Below are positions 1,542-11,395 of a stretch of 28,557 nt of DNA, in pieces. The position numbers and the translations under genes are program-made. Location: IMG/VR virus record IMGVR_UViG_3300042380_000120, positions 1 through 28,557 of that record; one strand, written 5' to 3'. The notes under the pieces were generated by a model. The model saw nothing but the letters and a program-made list of their open reading frames with translations, was not told where the DNA came from and searched no databases. The DNA comes from a virus. Each line of letters begins with the position of its first letter. The first letter of the stretch is position 1.

Positions 1542-2797
1542 TGTCTAGCCTAAACATCAAGCTGCTTAACTGGCAGCAGAAGGTATGGAAGCACCCTGGA
1601 CGGTTCCAGATAGTGGCGGCAGGGCGTCGATGTGGTAAGTCCAGACTGGCTGCTAGCAAGCTCCTAGTGAAGGCCCTAGAGGCTAAGTCAGGCACTGTGT
1701 TCTATGTGGCCCCCACCCAAGGCCAAGCCCGTGACATCATGTGGCAGTTGCTACTGGAGATGGGGCATCCTGTCATTAAAGGCCACCATGTCAATAATCT
1801 TGAGATTACCCTCATCAATGGGATCAAGATAAGACTAAAGGGTGCTGACAGGCCAGAGACTATGCGTGGTGTCTCTCTGTTCTACTTGGTGCTTGATGAA
1901 TATGCAGACATCAGGCCGGATGTGTGGGAACAGATTCTGAGACCTGCCTTGGCTGACTTGAAAGGGGAAGCCTTGTTTATTGGTACTCCAATGGGTCGTA
2001 ACCACTTCTATGACCTGTTCAAGTATGCAGAGCTTTCAGGGGATGAAGATTGGAAGGCTTGGCACTTTACCTCTTATGACAATGAGACCATTGATCCTAA
2101 AGAGATAGAGGCTGCTAAGAGGTCTATGTCCTCCTATGCCTTCCGTCAGGAGTTCATGGCTTCTTTTGAATCCTTAGGCTCTGAGATATTCAAGGAAGAC
2201 TGGATACGGTACGGGGAAGAACCAGACGCTGGTGATTACTACATTGCCATCGACCTTGCAGGCTTCAAAGAGGCAGGGAAGATAAAGTCTAAGAATGCAA
2301 AGCTGGACGAGTCTGCCATCGCCGTAGTGAAGGTGACACCACAAGGAGAGTGGTGGGTAGCTAACATTATCAGGGGACGCTGGGAGCTAGGACAGACAGT
2401 AGAGAAGATATTCCAAGCTGTCAGGGACTATAAACCAGTAGCAGTAGGCATAGAGAAGGGTATTGCAAGGCAGGCGGTTATGGAGCCTCTGTGTGACATG
2501 ATGCGCAAGTACAACACCTTCTTCAATGTCAAAGAGCTTACGCACGGTAACCAGAAGAAGATTGACAGGATTGTCTGGGCCTTACAGGGACGTTTCGAGA
2601 ACAGCAGGGTCAAGATAAACAGGGGCGAATGGAATGAACAGCTTCTGGATCAGTTGTTTCAGTTCCCAAGTGACTTGGTGCATGATGACTTAGTAGATGC
2701 CTTGGCTTATGTGGCTCAGTTAGCCACTATCCCGTATGGGATTGAAGAGTTTCAAGATACTGATTATGAACCTTTGGATGTCCTGTCGGGATATTGA
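1541..2797 (+). CDS. terL: Terminase large subunit (ATPase-nuclease)
   Basis: A 418-residue motor that drives DNA into the prohead and cuts the concatemer. The N-terminal ATPase has Walker A AGRRCGKS (27-34), Walker B YLVLDEYAD (115-123, D119 and E120), and a GTP motif III at 148-150. The C-terminal RNase H-like nuclease has acidic residues at D238 (IAIDLAG), E305 (VGIEKG) and D382/D383 (HDDLVDALAY). Length is usual for a compact phage terminase. The GTG start shares a base with the upstream stop and has no strong ribosome-binding site, so translation is probably coupled. The portal follows directly. Arginine is often AGG or AGA here. Confidence 0.96.
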   Translation: MSSLNIKLLNWQQKVWKHPGRFQIVAAGRRCGKSRLAASKLLVKALEAKSGTVFYVAPTQGQARDIMWQLLLEMGHPVIKGHHVNNLEITLINGIKIRLKGADRPETMRGVSLFYLVLDEYADIRPDVWEQILRPALADLKGEALFIGTPMGRNHFYDLFKYAELSGDEDWKAWHFTSYDNETIDPKEIEAAKRSMSSYAFRQEFMASFESLGSEIFKEDWIRYGEEPDAGDYYIAIDLAGFKEAGKIKSKNAKLDESAIAVVKVTPQGEWWVANIIRGRWELGQTVEKIFQAVRDYKPVAVGIEKGIARQAVMEPLCDMMRKYNTFFNVKELTHGNQKKIDRIVWALQGRFENSRVKINRGEWNEQLLDQLFQFPSDLVHDDLVDALAYVAQLATIPYGIEEFQDTDYEPLDVLSGY

Positions 2798-2811
2798 TTG
2801 TGGAGAAGCTA

Positions 2812-4830
2812 ATGGATTTCATGGATGCCGAACCGGGTGATTTCTCTTTAGAGGAGAATCTGGAAGGCTGGGTCATGTCCAAGGTGGATGAGTGGCGGGA
2901 ACACTATGAGAATAACTACCAGCGCCGCCATGACGAATACTACCGCATCTGGAGAGGCGTCTGGGCTGCTGAGGATCGCACCAGGGAGTCAGAGCGTAGC
3001 CGTCTGATTAGTCCCGCCACGCAGCAGGCTGTAGAGTCTGCCGTAGCTGAGATGGAAGAGGCTACCTTTGGCAGGGGTGTGTGGTTTGATATTAGTGATG
3101 ATTTCACTGATACACAGAAGCAGGATGTTGAATTCCTGAAGCGAAAGCTGCATGAGGACTTCAAGAAGCAGAAGATACGCAAGAGTATCGCTGAAGCCCT
3201 CATCAATGCCGCTGTGTTTGGCACTGGCATTGCCGAAGTGGTGCTGGAAGAAGTCAAAGAGATGGCACCAGCCACTGAACCTGTCCTTGGTGGGCAGCTT
3301 ACCGCAGTGGGTGTCAACATCAAGAACCGCACAGTAGTGAAGATGCGGTCGATTCTGCCTCAGAACTTCCTGATTGACCCCGCTGCTTGCAGCATTGAGG
3401 AGGCTCTGGGGGTAGTAATCGATGAATATGTACCTGCTCACACCATTGAGATGATGCAAGAGAAGGGTATTTATCGAAAACTACCCATCAGGAACGCTGT
3501 AACCGACCTAGACCTTGAAGAAGACAAGACTCTGACGGTTCCAGAGACTGAAAAGACCCAAAAGACCACCTATTATGGCTTGGTGCCTCGTCATTTGCTT
3601 AAAAAAGCACAGAATGAGGACGGTGAAGTCGTTATTTTGGCAAGTAGTGAGGAAGAAGAAAGCTATTATGTAGAAGCCATTGTGGTATTGGCTAATGGCG
3701 GTGACCTTCTGAAGGCAGAAGAGACCCCCTACATGATGCAGGATAGGCCTGTTGTAGCATTCCCTTGGGACATTGTGCCCGGTAAGTTCTGGGGACGGGG
3801 CATCTGTGAGAAAGCCTACAACAGTCAGAAGGCGCTGGATGCTGAACTTCGTGCGCGTCAGGACGTCTTGGCGCTTACGGTACATCCGATGGTAGGGGTA
3901 GACTCCACAAGGCTCCCTCGTGGGATGAACACAGAGGTTCGCCCTGGTAAGACCATTCTGACTGTTGGAAGGCCCTCAGAGATCATAGAGCCTATCCGGC
4001 TGGGTGGGGTAGACCAAGTTACCTTTGTGCAGGCAGAGGCCCTCCAGAGGATGCTACAGATGGCTACAGGGGCCATCGACTCTGCTGGTATCCCCGGCTC
4101 AATCAATGGTGAATCGACGGCTGCTGGCATCTCCATGAGCCTTGGTGCCATCATCAAGCGCCACAAGCGCACCTTGATTAATTTTCAAGAATCATTCATT
4201 ATTCCGTTTGTGGAAAAGGCTGCATGGCGTTATATGCAGTTTGATCCTGAGTCGTACCCGGTATCTGATTATAAATTCATTGCAACTTCGTCTCTTGGTA
4301 TCATTGCAAGGGAATATGAAGTCACCCAGTTGGTTCAGTTGCTTCAAACCATGTCCGCTGAGTCTCCGTTGTACCCGGTATTGATTCAGTCAATCATTGA
4401 TAATATGAACATAGCCAACCGGGAAGAGCTTAAAGCAGCAATGCAGCAGGCGTCCCAGCCGTCGCCAGAGGCACAACAGGCTCAGAAGATGTCTGTAGAG
4501 GCTGACCTTCGCTTCAAAGGCTCACAGGCGGCTGCTCTGGAAGGACAGGCTGCTGAGTCTATGGCAAGGGCTGAGAAGCTCATGATGGAGCGTAGTGCCA
4601 TCCCTGTAGAGATGCGGATTAAGCTGGGTCAGGCAGCCGCTACCAACATCAAGGACTCTGACAAGAGCAATGAGTTTGAGCGTCGTCTGAAGATGATGCA
4701 GGCCCTGCTGGAAGAGCGTAAGGTGGCTGTATTGGAGCGTAAGGAACAATCAGAATCGCGTAAGCTACAGCAGGTAGAGCCTGTTAAGCGAGCCAAGTTC
4801 AATCGTCAAACAGGGACTATTGAGCTATGA
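2812..4830 (+). CDS. Portal (head-tail connector) protein
   Basis: A 672-residue protein forming the ring through which DNA enters and leaves the capsid. It has the usual podovirus portal make-up: an N-terminal helical region rich in Arg/Glu (YYRIWRGVW), a segment with PQNFLIDPAA, an FPWDIVPGKFWGRGI region, a DVLALTVHPMVGVD region, and a long Gln/Glu/Lys-rich coiled-coil C-terminus of about 130 residues that would form the barrel. ATG 2812 follows GGAGA (2802-2806). The frame also allows TTG 2794, which would overlap the terL stop by 4 nt and add six residues. The downstream gene overlaps by ATGA. Confidence 0.9.
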   Translation: MDFMDAEPGDFSLEENLEGWVMSKVDEWREHYENNYQRRHDEYYRIWRGVWAAEDRTRESERSRLISPATQQAVESAVAEMEEATFGRGVWFDISDDFTDTQKQDVEFLKRKLHEDFKKQKIRKSIAEALINAAVFGTGIAEVVLEEVKEMAPATEPVLGGQLTAVGVNIKNRTVVKMRSILPQNFLIDPAACSIEEALGVVIDEYVPAHTIEMMQEKGIYRKLPIRNAVTDLDLEEDKTLTVPETEKTQKTTYYGLVPRHLLKKAQNEDGEVVILASSEEEESYYVEAIVVLANGGDLLKAEETPYMMQDRPVVAFPWDIVPGKFWGRGICEKAYNSQKALDAELRARQDVLALTVHPMVGVDSTRLPRGMNTEVRPGKTILTVGRPSEIIEPIRLGGVDQVTFVQAEALQRMLQMATGAIDSAGIPGSINGESTAAGISMSLGAIIKRHKRTLINFQESFIIPFVEKAAWRYMQFDPESYPVSDYKFIATSSLGIIAREYEVTQLVQLLQTMSAESPLYPVLIQSIIDNMNIANREELKAAMQQASQPSPEAQQAQKMSVEADLRFKGSQAAALEGQAAESMARAEKLMMERSAIPVEMRIKLGQAAATNIKDSDKSNEFERRLKMMQALLEERKVAVLERKEQSESRKLQQVEPVKRAKFNRQTGTIEL

Positions 4831-5198
4831 TGATTGTTGAGATAGGGCACAAGGAAATAGAGGTTGAGGAAGAGGACATCGACTCCCTTCTTGAGGTTCT
4901 AAACAAGAATAGAAAGCCAGAAGTAGAACCTATAACACCAGAGGCCCTTAAAGAAATACTGGTTTCTAGCTTTCCTGAAATACACACTAGCGTAGAGAAG
5001 ATACACACTAGTGTGGAAAAGATACTCACCAAGATGACCTCAGAGTTTACAGAGGCAGTCAAGAGTATCCCGCCAGTAGTAATACCAGAGCCGAAGGAAC
5101 AGCCGAGACCAGAGCCTGTAAAGCGCATTGTAGTGACTGACATTGAGCGGAATGCCAATGGTTATATCACTACTTGTATATTAAAAGTTCAACGCTAA
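4827..5198 (+). CDS. Acidic coiled-coil protein with tandem heptads
   Basis: A 123-residue acidic protein whose ATG overlaps the portal stop (ATGA). After EIGHKEIEVEEEDID it carries IHTSVEK twice and a third degenerate ILTKMT copy (residues about 52-71), a heptad pattern typical of a coiled coil. A Pro-rich hinge (IPPVVIPEPKEQPRPEP) and a beta-like tail follow. No known family recognised. The position after the portal would suit an assembly factor or connector accessory, but the true scaffold lies at 9651. Its stop is just before the ribosome-binding site of the next gene. Confidence 0.6.
   Translation: MMIVEIGHKEIEVEEEDIDSLLEVLNKNRKPEVEPITPEALKEILVSSFPEIHTSVEKIHTSVEKILTKMTSEFTEAVKSIPPVVIPEPKEQPRPEPVKRIVVTDIERNANGYITTCILKVQR
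4980..5021 (+). repeat. Two tandem 21-bp units encoding a heptad
   Basis: Units 4980-5000 and 5001-5021 differ at only three bases and both encode IHTSVEK; a degenerate third copy begins at 5022. Unit length equals seven codons, so copy number changes keep both frame and coiled-coil phase. Confidence 0.8.
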
Positions 5199-5209
5199 GG
5201 GAGAACGAT

Positions 5210-5650
5210 ATGAGTATGACCAACGCCGCCGAGGCGAACCTGATGAATTTGCTGTTCCTTAACACCGACTGGGCCAACATCGGTGATGTTGCCGGTCTCC
5301 AAAACTCCGCAGCAGCGGGGTCTTTTTACATATCCTTGCATTCGGCCGACCCCGGCGAAGCTGGCAATCAGTCCACCAATGAAATCGCTTACACGGGATA
5401 TGCCCGCGTGGCCGTGGCTCGGACGGCTGGCGGATTCACCCTGACCACCTCGACCATTAGCAATACTGCCTTGGTGCAGTTTGCTCAGTGTACTGGCGGC
5501 ACGGCTACCGCGTCTCACTTTGGAATTGGGACTGACCTCTCCGGCAACGGCAACCTGATCTTCAAGGGTGCGCTGACCTCTTCTCTGTCAATCTCCAACG
5601 GCATCCAGCCCCAGTTCGCTGCTGGTGCAATGACTGTAACGGTAGACTAA
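5210..5650 (+). CDS. Small virion or tail-associated beta protein (HSADPG type)
   Basis: A 146-residue protein with a short N-terminal helix, then YISLHSADPGEAG (near 39-51), ATGYAR-like IAYTGYARVAVART, and a beta-rich remainder. This 'LHTADPG ... YARV' pattern marks a widespread phage family usually labelled tail fibre or structural protein; exact role unknown. ATG 5210 follows AAGGGAG (5197-5203) and is chosen over an upstream in-frame ATG at 5174 that lies inside the previous gene. From here base composition and arginine codons (nearly all CGN) differ from the portal region. Confidence 0.7.
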   Translation: MSMTNAAEANLMNLLFLNTDWANIGDVAGLQNSAAAGSFYISLHSADPGEAGNQSTNEIAYTGYARVAVARTAGGFTLTTSTISNTALVQFAQCTGGTATASHFGIGTDLSGNGNLIFKGALTSSLSISNGIQPQFAAGAMTVTVD

Positions 5651-5769
5651 TGATCTGGATATGCGTCCATTGCTTGCGTCACCTGTTGTGTCTCAACGGT
5701 GAAGTGCAGCCGTGTCCCGAGCATCCTGACGGCCCTTACGAGCAGGTGGAAGTAGACGATGAGCTTTAA
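5650..5769 (+). CDS. 39-residue Cys-rich protein, putative zinc ribbon
   Basis: This short gene starts at an ATG sharing one base with the previous stop (TAATG) and ends 11 nt inside the next gene. The product begins MIWICVHC and contains CPEHPDGPY, giving C5-x2-C8 and C22-x2-H25 as a plausible zinc site, with a further Cys at 14. The C-terminus is acidic. Similar tiny 'CxxC ... CPxHP' proteins occur in tail-gene blocks of other phages (memory, not verified). The tight packing on both sides supports it as real. Confidence 0.6.
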   Translation: MIWICVHCLRHLLCLNGEVQPCPEHPDGPYEQVEVDDEL

Positions 5770-6619
5770 CGGTATCGGTCCGCTTGCTCAGGCTGTAGCT
5801 GAATCAGGGCAGGAATGGAAGTCATTTTTCTTCAAGACGGCTGTCCCTGCTGCTGGTGCTGGACGATGGGCTGATGCGTCCGTAGGTGCTGGGACTCCTA
5901 TTTACAATGCGTATGTAGGTGCCCAATACGAAGCGACTCAGATCATTGGCGCTGGCAACCGAGGCTTGTACACCGGACCAACGCCGCCTACGGGGCAGGA
6001 GAAGTTCATCCACGCCATTCAAGCGGTGTCGGTGTCTGCTGGTGTGCCTGTGTATATGTTGTTGGCGGATTACCTGATGTTTTATCCCTTGATTGACGGG
6101 GATAGTACAGATACACAAACGATGGACAACACGCAAACCCTGCCGAGATACACCTCTGGTGAAGGCGTCAGGTGTATGTTTGTTGTACAGACACCAATGG
6201 CACAGAACGGCACGGTTACGATGAGCTACACCAACTCCGATGGAGTCTCTGGTCGATCAGTAACCTTTGGGATTAACCTCAGTGCGGTTATCGGTGGTGT
6301 CATTAACACGGCAGCCAACACCAACGCAGCCGGTGGAGAGACGCCGTTTGTGCCGCTAGCCAGTGGTGACAAGGGTATTCGAAGCATTGAATCTGTGACC
6401 GTCTCCGGCGCTCCGGGTGGATTCTTAAATGCTGTACTTGTAAAGCCAATGACTCATATACAACTAAGAGAAAACGGCATAGCTGCTGAGAAAATCATGG
6501 TGCCTCACTCTGCTACCTGTCCGAAGGTAGAAAGTGGTGCCTACTTAAACTGGATCATTAACAACGCATCTGCGACGGCTCCCTTGCTTCGTGGATTTGT
6601 TCAATTCGCCTGGGGGTAA
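5759..6619 (+). CDS. Putative virion protein, paralogue A of a tandem pair
   Basis: A 286-residue protein of low charge, rich in Gly, Ala, Ser, Thr and Val, predicted beta-sandwich. It is clearly related to the next gene product. Shared landmarks in the same order are AGRW near residue 35, a YPLIDGDS versus YWPGITNN segment, TQTLPRYTSGEGVR versus TGTPTLRYTNGAGCR, GRSVTFGINLSAVIGG versus GRSLPVTVAMTASGIVGH, FVPLASGDKG versus FLPLASGDTG, and a closing FAWG versus LGWG. No enzymatic motif is seen. A decoration, spike or tail protein is likely from composition and setting; no named family recognised. Confidence 0.65.
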   Translation: MSFNGIGPLAQAVAESGQEWKSFFFKTAVPAAGAGRWADASVGAGTPIYNAYVGAQYEATQIIGAGNRGLYTGPTPPTGQEKFIHAIQAVSVSAGVPVYMLLADYLMFYPLIDGDSTDTQTMDNTQTLPRYTSGEGVRCMFVVQTPMAQNGTVTMSYTNSDGVSGRSVTFGINLSAVIGGVINTAANTNAAGGETPFVPLASGDKGIRSIESVTVSGAPGGFLNAVLVKPMTHIQLRENGIAAEKIMVPHSATCPKVESGAYLNWIINNASATAPLLRGFVQFAWG

Positions 6620-6620
6620 T

Positions 6621-7499
6621 ATGTCATTTTCATCAATGGATGATCTGGTATCCGAAATCACAAGTGGTAAGTTTACGCGCACCGACTGGAACAAGATCAC
6701 GGGTGCTGCTGCTTATGCTGCTGGTCGCTGGTACGACTTCAGCGGCCTGAACGGCACTCCGGTTGCCAATGCTTGGGCTGGTACGTCTCTGGCGTGGCGG
6801 TCATGCGATGAGACCACCGGCAACGGCACCCAGATTTTCGGCCTGCCCTGTGGTGGTAACGTCTCGCCAGATACTAAACACGTCCTCAACGTGTCGGCAG
6901 TGACCGCTGTAGCTACAGGGGTTCCTTCCCAGTTGATGCTGGTAGACCTTCAGGGGTATTGGCCGGGCATTACTAACAACTCCGCTACCGCTCAGACGCT
7001 GACTGGTACGCCGACTCTCCGGTACACCAACGGCGCAGGGTGTCGTCTGTTCTGGGTACAGACATCCGCAGCAGGTGCGACCGCTCAGAACATTTCGGTT
7101 TCGTACTCAAATACAGTTCCCACCTCTGGCCGGTCTCTGCCGGTAACTGTAGCAATGACGGCATCAGGCATCGTGGGTCATATCTCCCACTCCGGTACGG
7201 CTGCCAACAACTACGGGCCGTTCCTGCCCTTGGCTTCTGGTGATACCGGGGTCTCGACGGTGGCAACAGTGACCTTCTCAGCAGCCAACACGGGCACTGG
7301 GGCATTGTGCCTTGCTCGCCCCTTGCTGACGCTGCCGTTGACCACGGTATCGGTTGCTGCCGAACGTGACCTGCTGAACCAGTTGCCTAGCCTGCCGCGA
7401 GTGATGGACGGTGCCTGTCTAACGTGGCTCTACTTCGCGGGCGCTGCGACTGCTACGACCACTAACTTCTACGGCGCGGTAGAACTCGGATGGGGCTAA
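6621..7499 (+). CDS. Putative virion protein, paralogue B of a tandem pair
   Basis: A 292-residue homologue of the preceding protein, sharing the motifs listed there, with FLPLASGDTG and a terminal VELGWG as the clearest. ATG 6621 follows TGGGGG at 6611-6616, one base after the upstream TAA; a longer frame starting at 6591 would lie inside gene A. The two copies have diverged widely, so the duplication is old. Arginine codons are all CGN, unlike terL. The C-terminal end overlaps the next ORF by 10 nt. Function unknown; a heteromeric structural pair is one inference. Confidence 0.65.
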   Translation: MSFSSMDDLVSEITSGKFTRTDWNKITGAAAYAAGRWYDFSGLNGTPVANAWAGTSLAWRSCDETTGNGTQIFGLPCGGNVSPDTKHVLNVSAVTAVATGVPSQLMLVDLQGYWPGITNNSATAQTLTGTPTLRYTNGAGCRLFWVQTSAAGATAQNISVSYSNTVPTSGRSLPVTVAMTASGIVGHISHSGTAANNYGPFLPLASGDTGVSTVATVTFSAANTGTGALCLARPLLTLPLTTVSVAAERDLLNQLPSLPRVMDGACLTWLYFAGAATATTTNFYGAVELGWG

Positions 7500-8281
7500 A
7501 ACAGAACACCACAATCCTCGCGCAGCTACCGCTTAGACAGCGGGGAGGCGATCCGGGGACGCTACGGTCAATGTGGGGGCGTACTGACCTCCGCAATACG
7601 ACCGTGGGTGAAGGCATCCCATCGGAGCTTGCAGGTATCCCTTACGGGCACTTGTATCCTTCATCTTGGAATATGCCCTACCAGGGCGGTGCGATGTCGG
7701 CGTTTACCTTCAAAGGTATTACGTTTGACGTAGCATCTTTGAGTGTCGCTGCTGGCCGGAACATAGACGGCTCGGCAGTCATTACCTTTACCGTCGGCCC
7801 GTCCCAGCTAGACCTGATCGTCTCTGCTGTAGGTAGTTCAAGCGTAACCTTCACTGCTGACGGCACCCTGCTGGTCGCGCTCAACGCTGAAGGCTCTGCC
7901 ACGCTGAACTTCACCGTTGGGCCGTCGACGCTCGGTGCAGAGGCTGGGCTGTTTGGGTCATCGACGGTCACCGTAACGCTCACAGGGACGATGCTGGGGC
8001 AAGGGAACCTAGCAGGTGATATTACTCCATTTACAGAACTATCACCTCAGAGCCTCGCAGCGGCGGTCTGGTCAGCACTCGCGGCTGACTACAACGATGC
8101 TGACACAATGGGTAATAAACTTAACCTAGCATCCTCTGGTGGGGTTGACTACGCTGCCCTAGCGGCAGCGGTATTGGCAGCGGCACAGGCTACTCCGATC
8201 CATGCCGATGTTAAGAAGATGAATAACGCTACTGTTGCAGGTACTGGTATTCCTTCTGACCTCTGGCGAGGTAACCCGTGA
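7490..8281 (+). CDS. Putative structural protein with four 21-residue repeats
   Basis: A 263-residue protein. Residues 94-169 contain four tandem units beginning at G94, G115, G135 and G156, each fitting GS-x4-FT-x2-G-x2-L with slight variation, probably a beta-strand pair per unit. The C-terminal third has ELSPQSLAAAVWSALAADY and ends VAGTGIPSDLWRGNP. That last segment resembles the 'VNG..VTGTG...DPWGP' ends of many phage structural proteins. The N-terminus includes HLYPSSWNMPYQGG. Overlaps with both neighbours (10 nt and 4 nt) tie it to the same operon. Fibre or spike component is inferred. Confidence 0.6.
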   Translation: MGLKQNTTILAQLPLRQRGGDPGTLRSMWGRTDLRNTTVGEGIPSELAGIPYGHLYPSSWNMPYQGGAMSAFTFKGITFDVASLSVAAGRNIDGSAVITFTVGPSQLDLIVSAVGSSSVTFTADGTLLVALNAEGSATLNFTVGPSTLGAEAGLFGSSTVTVTLTGTMLGQGNLAGDITPFTELSPQSLAAAVWSALAADYNDADTMGNKLNLASSGGVDYAALAAAVLAAAQATPIHADVKKMNNATVAGTGIPSDLWRGNP

Positions 8282-8481
8282 ATGGTGCCTTCTCGTCAGG
8301 ATCATTCTTGACTCAGGCGTTTAGTGTTTCTGCATTCTCTTTCGATGTTCAAGAGAAGCGTAGAACCTCTAGGAACCGCTTCCAGAAGTATGAGATTGAA
8401 CAACGGCTACGCAAGATAGACCAACAGGACTTGATAGACATTGTATCCATCTTGAGTTTTGTTGATATTGATAACCTATAG
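8278..8481 (+). CDS. Hypothetical 67-residue protein
   Basis: GTG start overlapping the previous stop by 4 nt (GTGA). The N-terminus is Ser/Phe-rich (FSSGSFLTQAFSVSAFSF), and the C-terminal half is a charged helix (EKRRTSRNRFQKYEIEQRLRK) followed by an IDIVSILSF stretch. No family recognised. It closes the CGN-rich virion module. A real gene is supported by the overlap and by the close start of the next gene. Confidence 0.5.
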   Translation: MNGAFSSGSFLTQAFSVSAFSFDVQEKRRTSRNRFQKYEIEQRLRKIDQQDLIDIVSILSFVDIDNL

Positions 8482-8489
8482 GAAGGTTT

Positions 8490-8771
8490 ATGGCTAAAGA
8501 CCCCCGCCTAGAACGTGCTGGTGTAGAGGGCTATAACAAGCCCAAGAGAACGCCTAACCACCCTACCAAAAGTCATGTAGTGGTTGCCAAGGAAGGCGAC
8601 CAAGTTAAGACCATCAGGTTTGGTCAGCAAGGCGTTAGTGGTAGTCCAAAGAAGCAGGGCGAGTCTGAGTCCTACAGGAAGCGTAGGGAGTCATTCAAGG
8701 CCCGCCATGCTCAGAACATATCCAAGGGAAAGATGTCTGCTGCGTACTGGGCGGACAAGGTTAAATGGTGA
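8490..8771 (+). CDS. Conserved small basic phage protein (SHVVVAKEGD ... IRFGQQGV)
   Basis: A 93-residue basic protein. TPNHPTKSHVVVAKEGD is followed by QVKTIRFGQQGV and, after a charged linker, FKARHAQNISKGKMSAAYWA near the C-terminus. Proteins with exactly these blocks recur in many podovirus genomes without a known function (memory). AGGAAGG (8481-8487) precedes the ATG, close to it. Richness in Lys/Arg suggests nucleic-acid or virion contact, but no fold is evident. The stop overlaps a GTG used by the next gene. Confidence 0.75.
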   Translation: MAKDPRLERAGVEGYNKPKRTPNHPTKSHVVVAKEGDQVKTIRFGQQGVSGSPKKQGESESYRKRRESFKARHAQNISKGKMSAAYWADKVKW

Positions 8772-9384: not shown

Positions 9385-9583
9385 TTTCAAGTGCCAGACC
9401 GGCCATGTCTTCGAACAGAACGTAGCTGCTTCCGTCCGTGAGGTAGTTTGTCCTGAATGCACAAGCAACGCTGTTCGTATTATCTCAGCACCTGCCTTGA
9501 AGATACCTTTTAATGCCGATTACCCCGGAGCCTCCTATAAGTGGGCTAGGTATCACGAGAAGGGTTCTAAGAAGTACGACTAA
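9374..9583 (+). CDS. Small zinc-ribbon protein (FmdB-like)
   Basis: A 69-residue protein starting MLFDFKC-QTGH, with CPEC 23 residues later, giving a C/H plus CxxC ligand set similar to the FmdB-type zinc ribbons often found in phages. The C-terminal half (FNADYPGASYKWARYHEKGSKKYD) is typical of the phage versions. ATG 9374 is preferred, with GGTGAG (9361-9366) 7 nt before it; a GTG at 9362 would add four residues. The gene overlaps the previous one by 11 nt. Zinc binding is inferred from the cysteines; function unknown. Confidence 0.7.
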   Translation: MLFDFKCQTGHVFEQNVAASVREVVCPECTSNAVRIISAPALKIPFNADYPGASYKWARYHEKGSKKYD

Positions 9584-9584
9584 C

Positions 9585-9616
9585 AAACAGTCAACCACTA
9601 GCCAAGTGGCCTGTTT
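9585..9616 (+). terminator. Hairpin between zinc-ribbon gene and scaffold gene
   Basis: AAACAG (9585-9590) pairs with CTGTTT (9611-9616), and CCACT (9595-9599) with AGTGG (9605-9609), around a 5-nt loop with an asymmetric internal loop. It starts one base after a stop codon and is followed by TATATTCT. It could terminate partly or protect the 5' end of the scaffold-capsid message after processing. Confidence 0.45.
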
Positions 9617-9650
9617 ATATTCTCCACAATGCTAAGTCACGGAGTGAATA

Positions 9651-10424
9651 ATGGCTGAACTACTTAACGAGCGTCAATTGGAAAATGAAATAGCGGCTCT
9701 GGAAGCCTTGGAGATCAAGGAGAAGGTAGAAGAAACTACCGAACCCTCTGAGGAGATTCCTGAGAAGTATCGCAACAAATCCCTACAGGACATTGTGAGG
9801 ATGCACCAAGAGGCCGAGAAGGCTATGGGGCGTCATGCTAATGAGGTAGGCGAACTGCGAAAGGTAGTCGATGAATTCATTACCAAGCAGACAGAACTTG
9901 TTATCAAAAAGGAACCTGTCAAAGAAGTTGATTTCTTTAGCGATCCAGAAGGGGCTATCTCACAGACAATCGAAAAGCATCCTGCCTTCCAAGAGCTTCG
10001 TAGCCTAACGCAGAAGCAGAAGCAGGCAACGGCACAAGCAGAGATGCTTCGCCGTCACCCGGATTCCCTTGACTTGTTGGTGAATGAGGGTTTCCTAAAC
10101 TGGATTGGTAGCTCTAAGGTTCGTCAGGCTTTGTTGTTGAGGGCTGATAAGGAATATGACGTAGATGCCGCAGATGAGTTGTTCTCATTGTGGAAAGAGC
10201 GTCAGGGCCTTGTGAATCAGGCGGCGACGTCTGAACAGACCTCTCGCAAGGAGACTGTGCGGCGCGCAGCCTCTGGCAACAACAATGTTGCTTCCGAGCC
10301 ACAGGCTAAGAAGAAGTTCCGGCGACAGGACATTATCACACTGATGAAAGATGACCCCGATCGGTATGCTGCCTTAGCCCCTGAGATTCGGCTGGCGTAT
10401 GCAGAGAAACGGGTTATTAACTAA
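9651..10424 (+). CDS. Scaffold (capsid assembly) protein
   Basis: A 257-residue, highly charged, almost fully helical protein placed directly before the major capsid gene. The N-terminus is acidic (AALEALEIKEKVEETTEPSEE), and the middle is coiled-coil. The C-terminus is basic (AKKKFRRQD) with IITLMKDDPDRYAALAPEIRLAY, the type of helix-turn-helix end by which phage scaffolds contact coat protein. The role is to template prohead assembly and then leave. Length is in the range of T7-like scaffolds. A gene spacing of 17 nt to the capsid gene and the known order support the call. Confidence 0.85.
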   Translation: MAELLNERQLENEIAALEALEIKEKVEETTEPSEEIPEKYRNKSLQDIVRMHQEAEKAMGRHANEVGELRKVVDEFITKQTELVIKKEPVKEVDFFSDPEGAISQTIEKHPAFQELRSLTQKQKQATAQAEMLRRHPDSLDLLVNEGFLNWIGSSKVRQALLLRADKEYDVDAADELFSLWKERQGLVNQAATSEQTSRKETVRRAASGNNNVASEPQAKKKFRRQDIITLMKDDPDRYAALAPEIRLAYAEKRVIN

Positions 10425-10441
10425 CCTCCCAGGAGAATAGC

Positions 10442-11395
10442 ATGGCTACTTCAACCTACCCCACAATGACTGGCGCAGTTGGCCTGTCTGATGTTGGTAC
10501 CTTTATCCCCGAATTGTGGTCAGACGAGATTCGGGCGTCCTACGAGAAGAACCTTGTACTGGCTCGACTGGTCAAGCGTCTTTCGATGAAGGGCAAGAAA
10601 GGCGACACGATGCATATCCCGGCACCTGTCCGGGGCCTTGCATATAGCAAGACTGAAAACACTGCCGTAACGCTTCAGAACAATACCGAGTCTGAAGTCA
10701 CGGTAGTTATCAACAATCACTACGAATACTCGCGCTTGATCGAGGACATCGCTGGTGTACAGGCCCTGGACAGCCTCCGTCGTTTCTACACCGAAGACGC
10801 CGGTTATGCCCTTGCCCGTCAGATCGACACCGACCTGTTTGCCCTTGGTAAGAACCTCGGCAACGGTACGGGTTCTAGCTGGGTACACAGTAACTCCTAC
10901 TACATCGATGCCCCGAACGGGCTGTCGGCGTATGCGGCCTCTACTGTAACCACCAGTGACGTATTCACTGATGCTGGCTTCCGTGCTTTGATCCAGTTGA
11001 TGGATGATGCTGACGTACCGATGGATAACCGCTACTTTGTTATCCCCCCGGCACTCCGCAATGCCATCATGGGTATTGACCGCTATGTATCCAGCGACTT
11101 CGTAAACGGTCGTGGTGTACAGAATGGCAAGATCGGTGAACTCTACGGCATCGACATCTATGTTACCAGCAACTGCCCTGAAGTAGAAACGGCAGCAGCC
11201 AACACCGCTGGTGATCGCTTGATTGCTGCCATGCTGATGCACAAGGACTCCTTGATCCTTGCAGAGCAGCTTGGTGTTCGCAGCCAGACCCAGTACAAGC
11301 AGGAATATCTGGCTCACCTCTACACCGCAGATACCCTCTATGGTGTGAAGGCATACCGTCCTGACTCGGCCTTTGTGCTTGTAGTCAACGACTAA
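10442..11395 (+). CDS. Major capsid protein
   Basis: A 317-residue protein with features of podovirus coat proteins of the HK97 fold: an N-terminal arm (TFIPELWSDEIRASYEKNLVLARLV), a KGDTMHIPAPVRG E-loop/P-domain region, and a long spine helix region (EDAGYALARQIDTDLFALG). It closes with LYTADTLYGVKAYRPDSAFVLVV. It follows the scaffold gene, with CCAGGAG (10428-10434) as a good ribosome-binding site, and is itself followed by a hairpin terminator, as expected for the most highly expressed virion gene. Arginine codons are mainly CGN, consistent with high expression. Confidence 0.92.
   Translation: MATSTYPTMTGAVGLSDVGTFIPELWSDEIRASYEKNLVLARLVKRLSMKGKKGDTMHIPAPVRGLAYSKTENTAVTLQNNTESEVTVVINNHYEYSRLIEDIAGVQALDSLRRFYTEDAGYALARQIDTDLFALGKNLGNGTGSSWVHSNSYYIDAPNGLSAYAASTVTTSDVFTDAGFRALIQLMDDADVPMDNRYFVIPPALRNAIMGIDRYVSSDFVNGRGVQNGKIGELYGIDIYVTSNCPEVETAAANTAGDRLIAAMLMHKDSLILAEQLGVRSQTQYKQEYLAHLYTADTLYGVKAYRPDSAFVLVVND

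Follow-up and report, generated by a model that had tools for sequence, protein, structure and literature searches.

What do two adjacent, related genes contribute to a phage when they lie between portal and scaffold, where podoviruses seldom have large genes, and when their products resemble no family with a name? The question is raised by the window, a stretch of 28,557 nucleotides (IMG/VR record IMGVR_UViG_3300042380_000120) that stems from a freshwater virus of bacteria. A sequence-only reading of this DNA had described the two genes, here P1 and P2, as tandem paralogues of virion-like character and had suggested a heteromeric decoration or spike. The position given there is correct, the portal gene being found upstream and scaffold-like and capsid genes downstream. 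The features of the region are the following.

2794-4830, portal gene, nearest PHROG family 1216
4741..8489, + strand, inserted block as a whole, in comparison with the empty site of the near relatives L116 and L117
4827..5198, + strand, small gene right after the portal gene, 123 aa
5210..5650, + strand, P3, gp80-type fibre I bead protein, 146 aa (PF23140, PHROG 240, 8jou)
5650..5769, + strand, Cys-rich mini-ORF, 39 aa, with CxxC...CxEH (reads CVHC...CPEHPDG)
5759..6619, + strand, P1, first paralogue, 286 aa, predicted jelly-roll, variable copy
6621..7499, + strand, P2, second paralogue, 292 aa from ATG, predicted jelly-roll, constant copy
7490..8281, + strand, P4, rope-like repeat protein by period, alignment and gene order, 263 aa
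9651-10424, scaffold-like gene
10442-11395, major head protein (capsid) gene, PHROG major head protein

For P2 the ATG at 6621 was used as start; a mechanical ORF caller gives the GTG at 6591. P1 and P2 are real tandem paralogues, as had been claimed: in BLASTP their resemblance is far beyond chance, with 93/278 = 33% identity and an E value of 1e-35. The motifs AGRW, RYT-GxG, GRS, PLASGD and the terminal WG follow in the same order in both proteins, and in an alignment of 40 family members the residues G45, D109, R134, Y162, G210, L231, P234, L267 and W291 (P2 numbering) are invariant. Neither protein has a sequence match in PHROGs, Pfam or PDB. The same holds for a profile of 31 family members, and these members searched against PHROGs gave a best E value of 0.033, reached by single members. 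The family thus stays without a name, in agreement with the sequence-only reading. A match to an enzyme family, named beforehand as a refutation, did not occur, and an enzyme is unlikely for a pair with no sequence match in Pfam, PHROGs or PDB. P2 has matches in 282 IMG/VR stretches.

The unit to which P1 and P2 belong also takes in neighbours at 5210-5650 and 7490-8281 that the first reading had missed. P3 belongs with the fibre I beads of GP4 and is homologous to a solved fibre protein: it matches Pfam PF23140, 'Podophage GP4 fiber I protein gp80', with E 2.7e-19 and 70 bits (cut-off 27), PHROG 240 (head protein) with E 1.5e-15, and chain a of PDB entry 8jou with E 2e-4, the sequence of chain a being that of ten chains of 8jou. 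P4 has the position of a rope (beside the bead gene) and its repeat character, with no sequence match to the solved rope. In residues 61-200 a period of 41 scores 0.84 vs a maximum of 0.26 in 300 shuffles, and alignment with 19 relatives reveals a conserved N-terminal part of ~70 aa, repeats of ~20/41 aa and a swappable C-terminus. A search of the PDB by sequence for the GP4 rope, made with P4 and with the repeat protein of phage BcepIL02, found nothing. The genes are spaced tightly, as in translational coupling, with a gap of 1 nt between P1 and P2 and an overlap of P2 and P4. Among main-family loci with enough sequence, the order P3-P-P-P4 occurs 63 times and P3-P-P4 11 times; other patterns mostly belong to contigs with cut ends. 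Carriers in the freshwater clade have kept both P copies side by side.

Two smaller genes also lie within the inserted block. The ATG of the mini-ORF overlaps the P3 stop, its end overlaps the P1 start, and its translations are conserved among loci. Since a strict CxxC...C..H between P3 and the first jelly-roll gene is present in 54/69 two-copy loci and in 1/14 single-copy loci, the mini-ORF tends to travel with P1. Its product might, as a guess, be a putative zinc ribbon. The 123-aa gene at 4827-5198 gave no significant family match. It is missing from the empty site, and collagen-like proteins take the same place in some relatives; its product is possibly a stalk or anchor.

We read P1 and P2 as components of a chain-type appendage resembling fibre I of phage GP4, with a probability of roughly 0.6. 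The block that contains them probably builds a surface appendage for reaching the host. The virion-like character ascribed to the pair is likewise supported by the gene context.

Structure prediction for each protein had been proposed as a check. The AlphaFold2 models (pLDDT 88.0 and pTM 0.88 for P1, pLDDT 78.9 and pTM 0.82 for P2) are both beta-rich and jelly-roll-like, and viral jelly-rolls are matched weakly, with best Z values of 7.5 for P1 and 5.5 for P2 (VIA-align). The top match of P1 is polyomavirus VP1 (rmsd 3.9, 130 residues), and the list also contains residues 202-336 of VP2 of infectious bursal disease virus (IBDV, a birnavirus; Z 7.0, rmsd 3.4, 108 residues) and, lower down, the TNF-like 4-1BBL (Z 6.5, rmsd 3.5, 117 residues). 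For P2, Foldseek against the PDB gave no match at E <= 0.001, with TM-scores below 0.25. Strong matches were obtained in BFVD, with TM-scores mostly of 0.7-0.9, all of them uncharacterised phage proteins of like kind. Since Z values below 8 can reflect a common arrangement, we claim a jelly-roll-like topology only, and the fold kinship of both models is to be taken as loose. The predicted P1 topology aligns with the single jelly-rolls of polyomavirus VP1 and birnavirus VP2 202-336 at ~5% identity and Z < 8, by which neither common descent nor a capsid role is implied.

The two copies evolve differently. In pairwise comparison over 60 complete loci, P2 has the highest median amino acid identity (88%), followed by P3 (82%), the N-terminal 72 residues of P4 (78%) and P1 (44%). 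The corresponding median pN/pS values of 0.17, 0.23, 0.28 and 0.55 are rough because synonymous sites are near saturation. Pairwise identities of the block genes are loosely correlated (0.29-0.66), which is what exchange of parts inside the block would produce. In the tree P1 and P2 form separate groups with support of 100/97 and 100/99, respectively. Paired genes also occur in three distant genomes, a 642-kb phage, MW202692 and L102; there the first gene is placed with P1 (95/86), and the second stands in a group of its own; the duplication is therefore probably older than these splits, the deepest forks of the tree being unsure owing to long branches.

A strongly variable P1 next to a constant P2 is also what would be expected of a distal receptor-binding tip, for example of trimers, in which P2 provides attachment and P1 specificity and P3/P4 form the shaft. 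The matches of P1 to the IBDV VP2 region 202-336 and to 4-1BBL are in line with such a tip, as are the extra stretches inserted in the P2-type proteins of L150 and L090. The variation of P1, however, affects strands as well as loops (entropy 1.21 against 1.32) and is not concentrated at a binding tip, and no carbohydrate-binding family is matched. We regard this assignment, which overlaps the chain-appendage reading as a narrower form of it, as rather unlikely. 

For the appendage itself, the behaviour of the whole block is informative. The portal, scaffold, capsid and terminase of the window were compared with P2-bearing contigs (tblastn, E 1e-3). In contigs whose P2 is 84-93% identical no match to portal, scaffold or capsid was obtained at this threshold, and the terminase gave sporadic partial matches of 30-41%. 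In loci with no match to the window portal or capsid, identities are mostly 73-88% for P3, 38-80% for P1 and 84-93% for P2. DNA similarity to the window sets in where P3 starts (5204-5216) and in many cases ends at ~7708, codon 73 of P4. The carrier portals fall into PHROG families 156, 12082, 332 and 12, and the window portal is nearest to 1216. Among the carriers, BLASTP matches were found for 3/21 portal, 6/21 terminase and 1/15 capsid-candidate pairs, none above 46%, and P2 is 84-94% identical in 55/55 carrier pairs. The block moves as a unit between phages with unrelated or barely related portals, terminases and capsids. Chimeric assembly as cause of the mosaic is ruled out by dozens of independent contigs that agree, and is also countered by a cultured phage, PA-SR01, with a single-P version.

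The carriers extend to long-tailed phages. L037 has a capsid protein of Pfam PF05065 and weak head-connector matches, from which we infer a long-tailed phage. The Pseudanabaena phage PA-SR01, which carries a bead gene, one P homologue and a gene for a 675-aa repeat protein, is a cultured siphovirus (PMC10286775); its particles gave a four-band gel in which bands were matched by size (PMC10286775). In PA-SR01 and its relatives (L103, L104, L105, L113, L091) the repeat protein after the single P measures 588-830 aa, that of L105 being perhaps shortened by a frameshift. Elsewhere in the window, at ~337-480, a small basic protein is encoded by DNA that is 70-74% identical in the unrelated carriers L022, L043, L047, L048 and L059. 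With a wide profile, the scan of viral contigs gave the best 80 loci again; the divergent members came from two distant queries.

The reverse comparison follows the backbone of the window. In L116 and L117 the portal is 88%, the scaffold 93%, the capsid 90% and the gene at 8490 97-98% identical to those of the window, and the portal gene is directly followed by the homologue of the gene at 8490, where DNA similarity resumes. The left edge of the block is approximate, since the last ~29 portal residues differ too. A search with the window portal and capsid gave 159 backbone loci for scanning, 75 of them with at least 3.5 kb beyond the portal; in both sets L150 is the only locus with matches to P3, P1 and P2. 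Other modules fill the portal-to-scaffold interval in L140 (4332-7558), L144 (3462-6515) and L152 (3799-6999). They consist of small bead-sized proteins, a protein of 257-267 aa and then a repeat protein with a period of 22 residues, and the ropes of L144 and L152 differ in repeat number. Just after the portal, L121, L144, L152, L195 and L150 have proteins that read as collagen-like; that of L150 was tested with Pfam and confirmed (PF01391). Since several relatives fill the interval with different modules, it has the appearance of a site at which appendage-like modules are exchanged. The remark that podoviruses seldom have large genes here holds for this lineage, whose close members either lack an insert at this site or carry a different one. 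At 8490-8771 the window encodes a 93-aa protein of PHROG 7595 with a weak match to a DNA-pilot protein, which is found at other positions in other phages.

Distant relatives place the P genes in further surroundings. In MW202738 (L095) a P-P pair is followed, at 9484-10932, by a repeat protein fused to an alginate lyase (PF05426, E 1.3e-18), with a period of 22 in residues 21-140 (score 1.38 vs a shuffled maximum of 0.55). The fusion can be read as a string of the appendage that bears a depolymerase. In Rctr197k the P genes come after a Baseplate_J-like gene, and the protein after them appears lectin-like by eye, with a weak DUF1583 match alone. Both are attachment-type neighbourhoods. Small proteins of phrog_644 in MW202738, Rctr197k and L062 were considered as gp80 homologues and rejected (hhalign probability 0.1). 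Inserted stretches were found in P2-type proteins of L150 and MW202692; such proteins are encoded at L150 3841-5097 (419 aa) and L090 14871-16043 (390 aa), and the L150 insert has the look of a carbohydrate-binding module by eye, with no match in Pfam. The distant MW202713 (L096) has a single P, and bead and rope were not detected; P is thus able to occur in their absence. Bacterial genomes, scanned once, yielded one P locus, in a Bdellovibrionales MAG (L093 10001-10876, 213-kb contig), which is probably a prophage. There, near terminase- and portal-like genes, a bead gene is accompanied by one P gene, whose product is 57% identical to P2, and a repeat-like protein is encoded downstream.

These observations bear on the first half of the proposed 'decoration or spike'. 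As a decoration, P1 and P2 would form a heteromer that coats the head as cement or surface protein, independently of bead and rope. The location between portal and scaffold/capsid genes, the jelly-roll-like predicted fold and the relative L096 with neither bead nor rope detected are all compatible with this. A protein that binds a capsid lattice could, however, hardly occur as the same block with unrelated capsid proteins, and the linkage to fibre-type genes is constant. The P genes beside Baseplate_J in Rctr197k and before the rope-alginate lyase fusion in MW202738 point in the same direction, since attachment-type surroundings disfavour an obligate role on the capsid lattice. Because the block moves between unrelated capsids and one relative has a Baseplate_J-like neighbour, we consider a decoration improbable. 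The spike fares better, in the broader form of a surface appendage, for which the fibre-I bead, the rope, the alginate lyase fusion and the baseplate-type neighbour speak. Secreted or intracellular accessory proteins outside the virion, acting for example in counter-defence or superinfection exclusion, are very improbable: mobility and an empty site are typical of accessory genes as well, but the insertion includes P3 from a solved virion-fibre family, its genes are packed as if translationally coupled, and the block lies within virion gene clusters in the carriers examined.

The chain-type appendage could then be built as follows. P4 would run as one extended polypeptide, with gp80-type bead subunits strung along its short repeats in the manner of the GP4 rope, and its conserved N-terminal ~70 residues, to which the shared DNA usually reaches, may dock on P2. 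P1 and P2 would both be present in the virion and in contact with each other, possibly as a heteromer. P2 would be the constant hub, nearly invariant because it touches P1, P3 and P4. The fast-evolving P1 is probably the exposed part of the P1/P2 assembly, where it would contact the cell surface, possibly by receptor binding, or diversify the appendage. The exchangeable C-terminus of P4 might adapt the unit to a given virion or carry an effector domain. More tentatively, and at somewhat less than even odds, the block of ~3-4 kb (bead, mini-protein, P2, P1 and rope) may be a self-contained plug-in appendage that is traded as a whole host-contact organelle. It would move between podophages and long-tailed phages, with the exchangeable rope end assembling it on each.

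P1 and P2 represent an unnamed family with members in hundreds of IMG/VR stretches, and few features common to these otherwise unrelated phages are as conserved as P2. Should the block prove to be a surface appendage that is portable, exchange among phages would reach beyond receptor-binding tips to complete host-contact modules, and the family would be a marker for such modules in unannotated genomes. The block would also provide a natural assembly of beads and rope, and four or five small proteins could be enough to reconstitute it.

By homology, the closest known system is fibre I of the Ralstonia podophage GP4, through P3, which shares the gp80 family. There, gp80 dimers are reportedly joined by an elongated rope protein, and gp77 is said to be the 15-fold fibre-tail adaptor. 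BcepIL02, which has gp80 and gp77 in common with GP4, has a short-repeat protein after the bead as in the window: its gp80-type gene is followed by a repeat protein with a 20-residue period and then by a homologue of GP4 gp77. Bead and rope thus appear to be an existing unit that took in the P genes. The window differs from GP4 fibre I in the addition of P1, P2 and the Cys-rich mini-ORF between bead and rope, and in the mobility of the block between unrelated phages. GP4 fibre I is not known to contain a jelly-roll pair, so that P1/P2 may have a distinct function within the shared operon. Among 20 window proteins searched with Pfam none matched PF23148, the gp77-type adaptor; the record itself may be incomplete.

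Among the closest in concept and mechanism is the neck fibre of the Anabaena myophage A-1(L), a separately encoded, self-assembling bead chain of gp80-gp81-gp82 with anchor, repeated beads and distal bead (PMC10966104). As described there, its chain differs in that trimers link head to tail, with no rope (PMC10966104). A-1(L) is absent from the matches listed for the P3 search of the phage collection. Equally close are the bead-on-a-string proteins of A511 (BW3TFN) and Milano (garland), in which dimeric beads are strung along an extended polypeptide (PMC10811340), the mechanism also proposed for P3 and P4. These assemblies consist of other proteins and are located on the baseplate or the tail fibre network (PMC10811340). 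A jelly-roll pair is not known from them or from the A-1(L) neck fibre. In comparison with these systems, what appears new here is an unnamed jelly-roll-pair family within an otherwise known kind of chain appendage.
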